A stretch of 54,361 nucleotides of DNA from an uncultured Thermoguttaceae bacterium (lineage in GTDB: Bacteria > Planctomycetota > Planctomycetia > Pirellulales > Thermoguttaceae): NCBI GenBank assembly GCA_937951625.1, contig CALFBP010000023.1, positions 1 to 54,361 on the forward strand. The letters are read 5' to 3'. Shown here piece after piece: positions 44,254-50,902 of the stretch. Numbering within the stretch: position 1 is the first letter of the stretch; each line of letters starts with the position of its first letter. Made by a program: the position numbers and the translations under genes. Under the pieces are notes generated by a model. That model saw only the letters and a list, made by a program, of their open reading frames with translations. It did not search any database and was not told where the DNA came from.

Positions 44254-45117
44254 TCAATTCTGGGCCTTGTGCCGAAATTTCAGAAAGTCGCCGACATAGA
44301 TCAGATATTCAAACGGGAGATCATCCTGTTTAACTTGGTCGGTAATGGTGCCAAGCGTGCCTTGGATGACCCCCTCTTCCTTGGCGTAGCCAGCTTTCTT
44401 GACGATGGCCACGGGGGTCTCGGGCGGATAGTTCACCAGGAGTTTTTTGATGAAATCCTGAAACTCCGCACGCATGGTGAAGAGCACCATGGAGCTGCGG
44501 TGGACCGAAAGATTCTCGATCGTGTCGGTCTTGCCTGGCCAATCGGCGGAAGAAAGGATGACCGCCTTGGTCTGGGAACTGTTGGTCACACTCCGGCGGA
44601 GCGCGGCATTGCCGGCGTTGAAGCTACTCACGCCGGGAACCACCACCGGGTTGAGGTCCTCGAACTCTTCGAGACACCAGGACCAGGGGCCATAAATCAG
44701 TGGGTCGCCGTGGTCGAGGATCACCACGGTCTTCTTTTCGGCTACGGCCTTGCGGACCATGGCGATGAACTCTTTGCGTTTCGCGTCGATTTGCTCCGCT
44801 TCTCGCCGCTGTTCGCCCTCCAATGAGGCGGGATCTTTGCCGTAGTAAGGGAACAGCCGCCAGTAGCCCTCGATCACTTCCTTACCGTCCAGGTGTTCAG
44901 CAACTTTTTCACGAACGCCGACGGTACCGAAGATCACATCGGCTTTTTTCATCACGTGGATTGCCCGAAGCGTCAACAAATCCGGATCGCCTGGCCCAAT
45001 GCCCACCAAGTAAAGCTGCGACGCGGCAGGCTCGGCCGAGGCGATCGTCGCCCAAACCAACGCGATACCCAGGATCGTTAGGAACGGCAACCGCGATGAG
45101 AACCTAAGGCTGTTCAT
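44254..45117 (-). CDS. tetrapyrrole (precorrin) methylase with N-terminal signal peptide
   Basis: This 287-aa protein starts with a signal peptide (LPFLTILGIALVWATIASAEP, likely cut after ASA) and then has the full PF00590 fold: LYLVGIGPGDPDLLTLRAI (SAM loop), KKADVIFGT, VILDHGDPLIYGPWSW (the GDP-x-x-Y motif) and VVPGVSSFNAGNAALRR (second SAM-binding element). Enzymes of this fold methylate precorrins, uroporphyrinogen or diphthine in the cytoplasm, where SAM is made. Export is therefore surprising: it may work in the periplasm, be tethered at the membrane, or bind rather than methylate a tetrapyrrole. It is single and diverges from the DUF1559-DUF4198 operon. Confidence 0.82.
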   Translation of the reverse strand: MNSLRFSSRLPFLTILGIALVWATIASAEPAASQLYLVGIGPGDPDLLTLRAIHVMKKADVIFGTVGVREKVAEHLDGKEVIEGYWRLFPYYGKDPASLEGEQRREAEQIDAKRKEFIAMVRKAVAEKKTVVILDHGDPLIYGPWSWCLEEFEDLNPVVVPGVSSFNAGNAALRRSVTNSSQTKAVILSSADWPGKTDTIENLSVHRSSMVLFTMRAEFQDFIKKLLVNYPPETPVAIVKKAGYAKEEGVIQGTLGTITDQVKQDDLPFEYLIYVGDFLKFRHKAQN

Positions 45118-45144: not shown

Positions 45145-45172
45145 GTAATACTTTTCCCAGTAACGTAATACT
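45145..45172. promoter_or_regulatory. paired GTAATACT sites upstream of the methylase
   Basis: GTAATACT occurs at 45145-45152 and again at 45165-45172, exactly 20 bp apart. The near end lies 27 bases upstream of the methylase ATG at 45117. The same arrangement is found upstream of the divergent DUF1559 gene. This fits an operator bound by a dimer or a row of response-regulator molecules on one face of the helix. Confidence 0.65.
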
Positions 45173-45451
45173 CCCCAAGGTAACCAACTCAAAGCGGCAT
45201 CGCAAGGCCTTCGTCCAAATTCGGGAGGTTCCTTTTTTACCGACCGTTTTCCACGCCCAACTCCAATCATTCAAGTTGGAAGCCCGGGACGCCGCGGCGG
45301 AGTCATGCGTGGGATAAGGCTGGAAATGTCCGGTTGCAGGCGTGCTGCGGCAATTTTTTCACCAACACGTCGAATATGCTTAACGTTCGATAGCCAAAGA
45401 GGTTGTGTTGCCAGAACGGGTTTGCCTGGACTGAAAAAGAGGTGTCCATCA

Positions 45452-45480
45452 TTGACAGCGGCAGGGCTTTGCGTAATACT
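45452..45480 (+). promoter_or_regulatory. sigma70-type promoter for the DUF1559-DUF4198 operon
   Basis: A perfect TTGACA (45452-45457) is followed after 17 bp by AATACT (45475-45480), four of six matches to the -10 consensus. The -10 falls inside the first GTAATACT site, so a protein bound there would block or alter initiation. Confidence 0.6.
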
Positions 45481-45500
45481 AACGCGCCGTTCGTAATACC
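45473..45500. promoter_or_regulatory. paired GTAATAC sites upstream of second DUF1559 gene
   Basis: GTAATACT at 45473-45480 and GTAATACC at 45493-45500 are again spaced by exactly 20 bp, ending 26 bases before the ATG at 45527. The rest of the region 45173-45451 shows no gene. Confidence 0.65.
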
Positions 45501-45526: not shown

Positions 45527-46564
45527 ATGATTGGCTCACCAGCCCGTCGGGCTTTCACGCTTGTCGAATTGCTCGTGGTGATCGCGATCATCGGCGTCCT
45601 GATCGCGCTACTGTTGCCCGCAGTCCAGGCGGCCCGCGAGGCCGCCCGCCGCTCCCAATGCACGAACAACCTCAAACAAATCACCCTGGCCTTGCACAAT
45701 TTCCACGACAGCCGCGGATCGTTTCCCGTGGGCTCGCCTTCCAAGACCTGTACCGGCTACGAATCGATTCCCGCTTGGCAATATCGCTGGGGGCCGATGG
45801 CAATGCTTACCCCCTACATGGAACAGTTCAATGTCTACAAGTCCTTGAATTTGGATGTGCCTTTGTACGGACACACGGGGGTATTTAATGGGCCGGGTGT
45901 GGGTGTGCATCCCTCCAATCAGGGGCCAGTGAGCCAAGACATCAGCTTCTTCTACTGTCCCAGCGATAAGAGCCAGAAGTTGGAGCCAGGGTTTGGCGCC
46001 ACGAACTACATGGCCTGCTGGGGACGCAGCGCGCCGACTCCGAACGGCACCGCCATGTTCGATACCGACGGCCTGTTCAACAACATCTCGGGAGTCCGTT
46101 TCGCCGATGTGACCGACGGCACGAGCAATACCGCCGCGTTCTCAGAGACCCTGATACCCGATCCCAACATGTCGTTTTCAGGCGGCATCGTGTTGACCCA
46201 GGAGAACAAGGACTTGGTGATCGTCGGCGCGCGGAGCGCCGGGGATCCGTTATTGACCGAAGAATGGTGTACCCGATTCGGCCAGCCTGTAGCGGCGCGG
46301 CCCAGCCGCGCGGCACGCTGGGTCGATGGTTTTGTTCTGTACACGGCTTACTATCACTGGCAAGCCCCGAACTCGCCTATCCCCGATTGCTCGAAGTGGG
46401 CCCCATTGACCGCGCTTTGGCAGTCGGCCCGAAGCCGCCATCCTGGCGGCGTCAACGTGGGCTTCGCCGATGGCAGCATCCGCTTTGTCAGCAGCACGAT
46501 CGACATCAACATCTGGCGGGCGGTTGGTTCCCGCAATGGCGGGGAAGTGGTTTCCAATTTCTAA
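45527..46564 (+). CDS. DUF1559-domain pseudopilin-like protein (copy 2)
   Basis: This 345-aa protein has the pilin-like leader [22 protein letters not shown] and [30 protein letters not shown]; the leader has Ala rather than Gly before the Phe at the cleavage site. The C-terminal HPGGVNVGFADGSIRF motif is intact. ACAGGAGGTTCCTT precedes the ATG. It is not close to copy 1 in the middle region, so it is not a recent local duplicate. The DUF4198 gene follows after 92 bp in the same operon, which ends at a clear terminator. Confidence 0.93.
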   Translation: MIGSPARRAFTLVELLVVIAIIGVLIALLLPAVQAAREAARRSQCTNNLKQITLALHNFHDSRGSFPVGSPSKTCTGYESIPAWQYRWGPMAMLTPYMEQFNVYKSLNLDVPLYGHTGVFNGPGVGVHPSNQGPVSQDISFFYCPSDKSQKLEPGFGATNYMACWGRSAPTPNGTAMFDTDGLFNNISGVRFADVTDGTSNTAAFSETLIPDPNMSFSGGIVLTQENKDLVIVGARSAGDPLLTEEWCTRFGQPVAARPSRAARWVDGFVLYTAYYHWQAPNSPIPDCSKWAPLTALWQSARSRHPGGVNVGFADGSIRFVSSTIDINIWRAVGSRNGGEVVSNF

Positions 46565-46656: not shown

Positions 46657-47523
46657 ATGAAGCTCGATCGGAAACAGCGTTGCTCACAACTCCAGAGTTG
46701 GTTATTGGCATGGCTCGCCATTTTCACCGCCTGCGGCTTTGTTGCCCCGGCCACCGCCCATGAGGTTTGGATCGAAACGGCGGCAACAGGGCAACCGGGC
46801 CAGGCGCAAGAGGTTCACGTCTGCTGGGGGCATTCTGGGCATCGTCAGGGCGGCGAGTCGCTGGCCAGTCAGCAACCGCGTCTAACGGCCTGGTATCTCG
46901 GGCCGAACGCCGCCCGGGAAACACTCCCCCTGACGCTGAAAGCCGATCATTTTGAGACTCGGTTCATTCCACCGGCCTCAGCAACGTACCAGCTCGTTGC
47001 CCAGCTCCAGGTGGGAATCATCGACCGCGAGTTCCATGGACTCCCGCCCAAAACCCGAATTGTCATGACCGGGAAGACGCTGGTTCGCGGAGGAGAGATC
47101 AACGAACCAACCGAAACCGAGTCCGCGATGGACCTGGACATCACGCCACAAAGCCCCTTGGATAGCCTGCGGCCCGGTGGCGTGTTCGCGGCGAAGATTA
47201 CGTTCAAGAACAAGCCCGTGGGCGGTCCCGGCGTGGCCGCGACTCTCAGTACCCTGGGAACGCAACCTTTTCCTCAAGACCCGGAAGTCGAGGGCCTGAG
47301 TTGGAGCGTCAAGAACACGCCGCAGCCCAACACCGGCGAAGTCCGCTTCCCGCTGATCACCGCGGGCCGACACATCCTCAGTGTCCGTTACACGGACGAG
47401 ACCCCCAGCACGTACGAGGGCGACCTGGATTTCGCCAGCCAGTTCAGTCATTTGCGCAAAGGCGAGACTTGCGAGCGAACGCTGCACGTGGTGACATTGA
47501 CGTTCGATGTCTCGCCACGGTAG
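46657..47523 (+). CDS. exported DUF4198-domain protein
   Basis: This 288-aa protein has a signal peptide (SWLLAWLAIFTACGFVAPATA) followed directly by HEVWIETAATGQPGQAQEVHVCWGHSGHRQGGE, the start typical of DUF4198. His at the processed N terminus and the HVCWGHSGH cluster look like metal ligands. The mature protein is beta-rich in two parts (residues 35-140 and 165-285), with ending HILSVRYTDETPSTYEGDLDFASQFSHL. DUF4198 proteins are often beside nickel/cobalt uptake genes. GAAAGGA lies six bases before the ATG. Confidence 0.82.
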   Translation: MKLDRKQRCSQLQSWLLAWLAIFTACGFVAPATAHEVWIETAATGQPGQAQEVHVCWGHSGHRQGGESLASQQPRLTAWYLGPNAARETLPLTLKADHFETRFIPPASATYQLVAQLQVGIIDREFHGLPPKTRIVMTGKTLVRGGEINEPTETESAMDLDITPQSPLDSLRPGGVFAAKITFKNKPVGGPGVAATLSTLGTQPFPQDPEVEGLSWSVKNTPQPNTGEVRFPLITAGRHILSVRYTDETPSTYEGDLDFASQFSHLRKGETCERTLHVVTLTFDVSPR

Positions 47524-47666: not shown

Positions 47667-48311
47667 ATGCTAGTTTCCTTGGAGCTGAAGGCCATCGCCG
47701 ACAAGTATGGCGTTTTGTCGCCTGAAATGGCGCTGGGCTATCGCGCCGTGAAGCTTGCCCAGCGAGAGTACGAATCGCTCGATGACGTTCGCGCCACGAT
47801 TCTGAACGCGACGGCGGCCAAACTCGCCTTGGAGGCTATGCTCAGGCCGAATGCCGTGTCGGTCAGGGACTGCGGCCGCCATGCGTACACATTTTGCCAT
47901 ACGTCCACCGGCAGTGTCCTGCGGCTGGAAGCCTTGCCAGACGCGCTCAGCCTGCCTGCGCGTTGGCGAGTGGTCGAAGACCGGTTGTTGCGCGGCCAAC
48001 CGATCGCCGAGGCCGAGATCGCCGCCTACAGTGGCATCGTCTCGGAAATGGTGTGCATGCTCCTTTTGGACCCTCCGGAGTGTTTGTTTTCAGTCAAGCG
48101 ATACCGATGCCGGCCAATCGGCCGATACCCTGACGTTCTATGTCGATTCCAGCGTTGCGATCGTTGCGGAGCGTGGGTTCGCTTGAATCGGTTGTATGAC
48201 GTGGAGGGATTCCGCTTGTGCGCTCCGTGCGCCGACGTGGAGCCGTTTTGGTTTGCGTCTACCTCCGCTATCGAGTCGGCGTTACCGGAACAACTTTCTC
48301 AACCAAGGTGA
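47667..48311 (+). CDS. FmdE-like protein with C-terminal zinc ribbon
   Basis: This 214-aa cytoplasmic protein has two parts. The first resembles FmdE (molybdenum formylmethanofuran dehydrogenase operon family): YGVLSPEMALGYRAVKLAQREY aligns with the usual HGHLCPGLALGYRAA, but the His and Cys that bind metal are replaced (Tyr-Gly-Val-Leu-Ser). The second is a zinc ribbon, RCDRCGAWVRLNRLYDVEGFRLCAPC, with two CxxC pairs. A stop codon lies in frame upstream, so the missing His/Cys is not a start-site error. There is no clear ribosome site. The DHS-like gene starts 15 bp after it. Confidence 0.65.
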   Translation: MLVSLELKAIADKYGVLSPEMALGYRAVKLAQREYESLDDVRATILNATAAKLALEAMLRPNAVSVRDCGRHAYTFCHTSTGSVLRLEALPDALSLPARWRVVEDRLLRGQPIAEAEIAAYSGIVSEMVCMLLLDPPECLFSVKRYRCRPIGRYPDVLCRFQRCDRCGAWVRLNRLYDVEGFRLCAPCADVEPFWFASTSAIESALPEQLSQPR

Positions 48312-48326
48312 AAGGATGCACGAGCC

Positions 48327-49421
48327 GTGAATGCTAAGCGCGCCAAACCCACGGGCCTCAGCACGTCCTTGCCCGCAAGTAAACGGCGGGCCAAACAGCA
48401 GTTGTTGACCACTCCGATCCAGCCCCTGCGGCTGTCTCCCCAATTCACGGTCGCCGACCTGGTCGACGCCATGAAAGGCATGTCCATCCAGGCCCGAAAC
48501 ATCGGCGCCTGCGCCACGGTGTTAGATCGCATGATGCGGGACGAGGCGAGGCCGACGGTTTTCCTGGGGCTTGCAGGCCCGCTGATCGCCGCCGGCCTGC
48601 GGCACGTGCTGCGGGAGCTGATCGCGGGAGGATACGTGGACGTCGTGGTCTCCACCGGCGCCATCCTGTACCAAGACATCTACCAGGCCCGGGGATTTCA
48701 ACACTTTCGCGGAACCCCCTACTCGAACGACGCGCTGTTGCGTTCGCTCTACATCGACCGGATCTACGATACGTACGTAGACGAAGAGCGATTCTGGGAG
48801 ACCGACATCTGGTGTGGCCGCGTAGCGGATGAGCTGTCGCCTGGCGTTTATTCCTCCCGGCAATTTCTCGAACGCCTCGGCTCCCGCTTGGACGACGAAG
48901 ACTCGATCGTGCGAACCTGTTTTCGTTTGGGCGTTCCCATCTTTTGCCCGGCCATCAACGATAGCTCGATCGGTATTGGGCTGACCCATCACCGGCATCG
49001 CTGCAAACAAAACAACACGGCGGGAATCGTTATCGACCCGATCCAAGACAATTACGAGCTGACGCAGATCGTCGTCCAATCGAAAAAGACGGCAGCCATT
49101 TATATTGCTGGGGGGGTGCCGAAGAACTATATCAACGATTCCATCGTGATGAGTTACATTTTTGGCCAGGATCGCGGCCACGCCTATGCGATCCAGGTAA
49201 CAACGGCCGTGACCGCCGACGGAGGCCTATCGTCCAGCACCCTCTCCGAGGCCCAAAGCTGGGGCAAGGTCTCGGTAACTGCCGACTTCGCCATGGCATG
49301 GATCGAACCGAGCGTGGCCTTGCCGCTGTTGACGTGCTACCTTCTCGATCGGCACCCCCCCGCCGCGCGACCTCGCCTGCACTTCCAATGGGACGGCGAC
49401 ATCCTGACCCGTCTTCGTTGA
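48327..49421 (+). CDS. deoxyhypusine synthase-like enzyme
   Basis: The product is 364 aa. The NAD-binding and catalytic motifs of deoxyhypusine synthase are recognisable: VVSTGAILYQDIYQ, IFCPAINDSSIGIGL, IYIAGGVPKNYIND, and, near residue 314, SEAQSWGKVSVTADF, in which the Lys that forms the spermidine imine is kept. Bacteria have no eIF5A, so the substrate must differ; bacterial members have been linked to other polyamine products such as homospermidine or bis-guanidino compounds. The start is GTG 48327 with GAAAGGA about ten bases upstream. It is co-transcribed with the FmdE-like gene. Confidence 0.85.
   Translation: MNAKRAKPTGLSTSLPASKRRAKQQLLTTPIQPLRLSPQFTVADLVDAMKGMSIQARNIGACATVLDRMMRDEARPTVFLGLAGPLIAAGLRHVLRELIAGGYVDVVVSTGAILYQDIYQARGFQHFRGTPYSNDALLRSLYIDRIYDTYVDEERFWETDIWCGRVADELSPGVYSSRQFLERLGSRLDDEDSIVRTCFRLGVPIFCPAINDSSIGIGLTHHRHRCKQNNTAGIVIDPIQDNYELTQIVVQSKKTAAIYIAGGVPKNYINDSIVMSYIFGQDRGHAYAIQVTTAVTADGGLSSSTLSEAQSWGKVSVTADFAMAWIEPSVALPLLTCYLLDRHPPAARPRLHFQWDGDILTRLR

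Positions 49422-49538: not shown

Positions 49539-50902
<1,364 letters not shown>

Follow-up and report, generated by a model that had tools for sequence, protein, structure and literature searches.

Paired GTAATAC elements upstream of divergent genes for an exported methylase-like protein and a DUF1559 protein are predicted NikR operators in a Thermoguttaceae genome

The window, the whole stretch of 54,361 nucleotides analysed here from an uncultured Thermoguttaceae bacterium (GenBank accession number CALFBP010000023.1), includes two divergent transcription units. The minus strand encodes a 287 aa protein of the tetrapyrrole-methylase family (coordinates 44254..45117; PF00590, 148.8 bits against a cut-off of 27.8). 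On the plus strand, a 345 aa pilin-like protein with a Pfam match to DUF1559 (SBP_bac_10; coordinates 45527..46564) is followed by a DUF4198 protein (coordinates 46666..47523; PF10670, 44.8 bits against a cut-off of 34). Genes for an FmdE-domain protein and a deoxyhypusine-synthase-like protein are found downstream of the DUF4198 gene (47667–49421), and were rejected as members of the unit as tblastn found none in the 16 methylase loci or in the 40 and 28 site loci. Further along, the minus strand carries a gene for a WYL-domain regulator and then a short open frame starting a DEAD helicase (49548–50902), apparently a truncated helicase gene.

The sequence GTAATAC occurs four times in the window when both strands are searched, always on the plus strand and at positions 45145, 45165, 45473 and 45493. 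The number expected was 0.52, and a count of four was reached in none of 100 shuffles. The letters at these half-sites are GTAATACT at three sites and GTAATACC at the last, and they form two pairs with a start-to-start distance of 20 bp in each, exactly as the original prediction had stated. The first pair, GTAATAC-N13-GTAATAC (putative NikR operator 1; coordinates 45145..45171), is 27 bases from the methylase ATG (45117, minus strand), and the second, of the same form (putative NikR operator 2; coordinates 45473..45499), is 27 bases from the DUF1559 ATG (45527), or 26 when the 8-mer GTAATACC is counted, so that the distances of 27 and 26 bases given earlier are both correct. A scan of the 4,589,180 bp genome for random pairs identified no exact GTAATAC-N13-GTAATAC besides the two in the window and none in the reversed control, with about 0.006 copies expected per genome at the base composition of the window. 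As had been proposed, a chance origin of the paired GTAATAC is therefore very unlikely. GTAATAC is a palindrome (GTA-W-TAC) in which the central base alone distinguishes direct from inverted order of the halves, and each pair is thus a 27 bp, nearly two-fold symmetric element with two palindromic halves. The spacers of operators 1 and 2 share no common sequence.

A promoter scan found one sigma-70-like promoter, TTGACA-17-AATACT (coordinates 45452..45480, plus strand), where 0.2 were expected in shuffles. Its -10 hexamer shares bases with the third GTAATAC, which is the left half of operator 2, confirming an overlap pointed out earlier. For the methylase gene, a weak promoter-like sequence, TTGAGT-16-TATTAC (coordinates 45165..45192, minus strand), was read by eye and is absent from the promoter-scan output; its -10 overlaps operator 1. 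As the operators lie 27 bases before the start codons and over -10 regions, they are placed as the sites of a repressor would be.

The arrangement matches that of NikR operators in delta-proteobacteria, described in the accessible text of a published study as an inverted repeat of 27–28 bp, GTGTTAC-[N13/14]-GTAACAC, that precedes nikMQO, nikK, nikKMLQO and hydAB and has variants with GTaTTAC and with the opposite order of the halves (PMC545781). Both have two 7 bp half-sites of the form GTRTTAC/GTAAYAC and a spacer of 13–14 bp. However, the elements in the window have GTAATAC twice, the left half not being the GTRTTAC of the commoner GTRTTAC...GTAAYAC order, and there are two operators in one divergent region, with the exported methylase-like and DUF1559 proteins among the targets, features that set them apart from the operators described in that text (PMC545781).

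The search for NikR identified a single gene in this genome (C40:50071–50487). Its 138 aa product has a ribbon-helix-helix domain (RHH_1) and a nickel domain (NikR_C, 98.8 bits), and scores 159.5 bits for NF003381 against a cut-off of 105. The loosened motif GTRWYAC-N13-GTRWYAC was present at zero mismatches in three places in the genome, and in none in the reversed control. Two of these are operators 1 and 2, and the third, GTATTAC-N13-GTAACAC (C21:12043–12069), is located directly upstream of a set of DUF4198-CbiM-NikL-CbiQ-CbiO genes, a nikKMLQO-like operon for an ECF-type nickel/cobalt transporter (NikL, NF058648, 163 bits against 100). Three open reading frames elsewhere in the genome assembly match the [NiFe]-hydrogenase large subunit. 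When up to three mismatches were allowed, 28 forward and 26 reverse matches were obtained in this genome versus 34 and 28 in the control, and no extra sites can be claimed. A weight matrix was constructed from 15 different sites, located at 16 loci of relatives that carry nikK or nikM, with no site from the host genome included. Each window operator scored 23.5 bits, the two taking ranks one and two in the 54 kb window with the next-best place at 6.6 bits. This score falls near the bottom of the range of the training nik sites (21.5–29.4 bits), and the site of the host's own nik operon scored 29.0. In the accessible portion of a 2009 survey, no nickel/cobalt transporter was entered for its three planctomycete genomes (PMC2667541).

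Relatives were compared in a set of 147 genomes that includes the host genome, 91 of them in the family of the window and 56 outside it. Methylase matches at E <= 1e-10 were found in 35 of the 147. Strong orthologues are encoded by 14 including the host, the other 13 proteins sharing 51–67% identity with that in the window, and as these 14 genomes belong to one family and 9 genera, they do not represent 14 independent events. Each of the 14 methylase orthologues belongs to a unit headed by a site with no more than one mismatch. The site is 27–187 bp before the methylase gene in seven units, and in the other seven the order is site, DUF1559, methylase. A one-operon form with the order site, DUF1559, methylase, DUF4198 was found in G015 and G003, and in G003 this unit adjoins nikM-nikL-cbiQ-cbiO. 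Relative to the seven one-direction arrangements, the methylase gene in the window is turned round, which is why one region there carries two operators. Close DUF1559 orthologues (E <= 1e-90; at most the best 14 candidates per genome scored) were present in 15 of the 147 genomes, namely the same 14 and G056, and all 15 have an upstream site with at most one mismatch. The comparison with relatives proposed in the original prediction thus placed the element upstream of the orthologues of both genes. The site is kept about 20–260 bp from the first gene in these relatives, though the spacers differ, and when spacer lengths of 11–15 were scanned in the window and 16 loci, 18 matches were obtained, with a spacer of 13 in 16 and of 14 in two.

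The methylase and DUF1559 genes are not neighbours in G018, G024, G028, G046, G049 and G075, where a separate site leads each gene; the genes are distant from each other in G024 and on different contigs in the other five. The hypergeometric chance of the co-occurrence of the two genes in the family's 91 genomes is about 1e-15, a value that exaggerates the significance, since kinship makes the genomes non-independent. Co-occurrence that is near perfect and is kept when the genes are not neighbours predicts a joint function. Two further methylase homologues in the order, with 40–42% identity, come from genomes with no NikR hit (G131 and G127), and no site was found in the 14 and 10 kb around them. 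A methylase in G094 (34% identity over part of the protein) has one of the two spacer-14 matches downstream of its gene, and this match was set aside as unrelated.

In the comparison set, NikR was found in 62 of the 91 family genomes and in one of the 56 outside. Zero-mismatch sites numbered 80 versus 19 in the reversed control inside the family, and 6 versus 9 outside it. Two genomes among the 14 with the methylase, G001 (82% complete) and G070 (72% complete), gave no NikR hit. All 80 of the zero-mismatch, spacer-13 sites in the family were inspected for targets. Seventeen, including the host's own, precede nikK or nikM; at L099 and L100 nikK is present with no nikM nearby, and some contigs with nik sites are cut. 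Sixteen, including both in the window, precede methylase/DUF1559 units, nine precede genes of an exported PEP-CTERM family, three precede an [FeFe] hydrogenase (L088, 3751–5659; L097, 40–2202; L263, 212–2099) and seven precede other DUF1559 genes (L093 and L267 being doubtful). The remaining 28 could be tied to no plausible target, and as about 19 reversed-control hits are expected and six of the 28 are copies of one repeat, this is about what chance leaves. The repeat, a motif-like sequence with a GC-rich centre that may be a repeat element imitating the motif, is present in six copies (L251–L256) in G021 and G074, two genomes of one genus. The unassigned sites also include one at L091 (195–3903), upstream of what was read by eye as a gene for the large subunit of glutamate synthase.

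The PEP-CTERM genes define a second site-led unit, present elsewhere in the family, in which the site is followed by the gene for an exported PEP-CTERM protein (L092, 5516–7813; L089, 3422–6018; L104, 2180–5378; further loci L087, L098, L102, L117, L271, L272 and L221–L244). A DUF1559 gene comes after the PEP-CTERM gene at six of the first seven loci, and the seventh ends with its contig. With at most the best 10 candidates per genome scored, 16 of the 19 places within the family had an upstream site, against none of five outside it. The three places in the family with no site are in G016 and G030, both of which have NikR, and at a fragment in G053 with its upstream side cut off. None of the 18 family genomes with the PEP-CTERM family is among the 14 with a strong methylase orthologue (of 91; P = 0.035, uncorrected for kinship), and the evidence that the two exported modules exclude each other is suggestive only.

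The methylase is placed in PF00590 by its score and by its motifs. GxGPG, GD and PGxS are kept in all 16 aligned methylases, with G39, G41, P42, G43, G137, D138, P161, G162 and S164 invariant in all 16; these are presumably the residues of the SAM site. The nearest relative among PDB profiles was precorrin-4 C11-methyltransferase (4e16; E 7e-37), and CobM/CbiF was also the best NCBIfam match. However, the protein is far below the equivalog cut-off for CobM/CbiF (TIGR01465; 115.5 versus 259.65 bits), and differs further from CobM/CbiF in the NikR-type site upstream of its gene and in a signal-peptide-like segment at the N-terminus, followed by GIGPGDPDLLT. A structure model was of middling quality (pLDDT 69.8, pTM 0.56), and Foldseek placed CobM/CbiF first with TM-scores of only 0.37–0.46 for the top five, so that the family placement rests on sequence.

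A hydrophobic extension before GxGPG is present in the host methylase and in all 15 aligned relatives, the motif being at position 33–53 in these 16 proteins and the best 12-residue mean hydropathy 1.94–3.10. In 39 control loci drawn from the 80 methylase matches listed, the motif is within the first 16 residues in 23 and later in 15, of which six, with 220–280 residues ahead of the motif, also reach a mean of 1.8; the remaining locus, L118, has no motif match. Among the same 80 matches listed from the contig scan, L118 is the one relative more than 40% identical (47%), the other 79 being at 24–33%, and it has neither a site at up to one mismatch nor a neighbour belonging to the set. A wider exported-methylase family was also sought in 392 genomes drawn evenly from the phylum and was rejected, as the two matches obtained at E <= 1e-45 came from the family of the window.

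DUF1559 is described in Pfam as a family of unknown function. In the branch that includes the window protein, H116, H128, H277 and C248 are invariant in the 13 orthologues aligned (G028 and G056 were left out), whereas one of 11 other DUF1559 proteins from the same loci has a histidine at 128 and none has any of the other three residues. The structure model of this protein was useless (pLDDT 34.5).

The DUF4198 protein has, by eye, a mature N-terminus that starts with His (ATA|HEVWIE), as in NikK-type proteins. This presumed N-terminal His and a second aligned His were present in all eight proteins compared, which include NikK-type proteins, with cleavage placed by eye and the solved IsDUF4198 outside the alignment. 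A DUF4198 protein with an N-terminal His binds nickel with a Kd of 18 nM, according to the accessible text of its description (PMC12537917), and the window protein resembles it and NikK in its Pfam family and in both histidines. However, at E <= 1e-20 it matches proteins of just three relatives (33–43% identity), so that four of the 147 genomes including the host encode it, all among the 14 with the methylase, and its gene is beside that for DUF1559 rather than in a nik operon. A sequence search of the PDB with this protein gave no meaningful match.

Taken together, the two GTAATAC pairs are very likely to be working NikR operators that tie the exported methylase-like protein and the DUF1559 protein to nickel. 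The original prediction had proposed that one regulator controls both divergent units and had named metal-responsive regulators among the candidates. The comparative evidence supports the former, and for the latter NikR is the most likely identity, given the consensus layout, the NikR gene in the same genome, the element before the nik operon and the conservation at orthologues. Nickel-bound NikR of other bacteria acts as a repressor, and nickel shortage de-represses its targets. By analogy, we infer that nickel-loaded NikR would bind each 27 bp GTAATAC-N13-GTAATAC through a ribbon-helix-helix dimer on each half-site, with two helical turns between the dimers, and would cover the -10 of each divergent promoter and repress both in cells with ample nickel. 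Under nickel shortage, the methylase-like, DUF1559 and DUF4198 proteins would be made together with the nickel transporter, and may form an extracytoplasmic accessory set for nickel acquisition. A role of the methylase and DUF1559 proteins in nickel uptake is a guess.

A different regulator that recognizes the same half-site, such as a second ribbon-helix-helix protein or a factor linked to cobalt or cobalamin, would fit a methylase whose nearest profile relative acts on precorrin-4, as the protein would then belong to corrin rather than nickel metabolism. It would also account for the 10 of the 29 family genomes lacking a NikR hit that have at least one zero-mismatch site (17 sites in total, of which six are the repeat in G021 and G074); among the genomes lacking a NikR hit, G027 is 93% complete and has a site before an exported gene. 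However, the element precedes nikK or nikM in the host and in 16 places in relatives, and an [FeFe] hydrogenase in three, and outside the family neither the G131 and G127 methylase genes nor any of the five PEP-CTERM homologues, from genomes with no NikR hit, has a site. No riboswitch, the cobalamin type included, was detected by Rfam at the gathering threshold in the window and eight loci, leaving the cobalamin connection raised in the original prediction unsupported. Control by such a regulator is thus considered highly improbable. Less credible still is that the pairs are a repeat or a chance feature with no regulatory role. Repeated sequence of this form does exist in G021 and G074, and the 28 family sites with no evident target indicate that some pairs are repeats or chance, but the two exact copies in the host genome are both before translation starts and have unlike spacers, and the distance to the first gene is maintained in relatives as the spacers change. 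That a site leads the units of all 14 methylase and all 15 DUF1559 orthologues argues strongly against this reading.

A further alternative accepts NikR control and holds that the genes help to replace nickel enzymes, or to handle nickel in some way besides uptake. Replacement of [NiFe] hydrogenase by [FeFe] hydrogenase is a known form of such substitution. The three family sites before an [FeFe] hydrogenase are in keeping with this, and the accessible text on delta-proteobacteria predicts an [FeFe] hydrogenase under NikR as a substitution target in Desulfovibrio desulfuricans (PMC545781). On the other hand, the DUF4198 protein encoded beside DUF1559 belongs to a family with a nickel-binding member (PMC12537917, from the text accessible), and the G003 unit adjoins the nikM-nikL-cbiQ-cbiO genes. 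This alternative is possible though unlikely, and of those considered here it deserves the most weight.

The type of operator is known, and what is new is the set of regulon targets, above all the exported methylase-like protein. In literature made up mostly of papers free of subscription, nothing was found that joins NikR with a tetrapyrrole methylase or DUF1559 with nickel. NikR control of these genes would extend the NikR motif of delta-proteobacteria to a planctomycete family, and points to nickel supply as the likely physiological signal for the tetrapyrrole-methylase-family proteins with a signal peptide and for this branch of DUF1559. As a doubtful and more speculative extension, nickel-starved cells might export the protein with the corrin-methylase fold and the histidine-marked DUF1559 protein as a joint apparatus. 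This would take up nickel bound outside the cytoplasm to tetrapyrroles or some other methylated chelator and hand it on to DUF4198/NikK and then NikMLQO, with relatives that lack the apparatus using PEP-CTERM and DUF1559 proteins in the same NikR-controlled slot.

A variant of the element, GTAACAC-N13-GTGACAC, was observed in G081 (L258, 3515–5128), where it is located between a NikR gene and a divergent DUF1559 gene. The NikR encoded at this locus shares 42% identity with that of the host.
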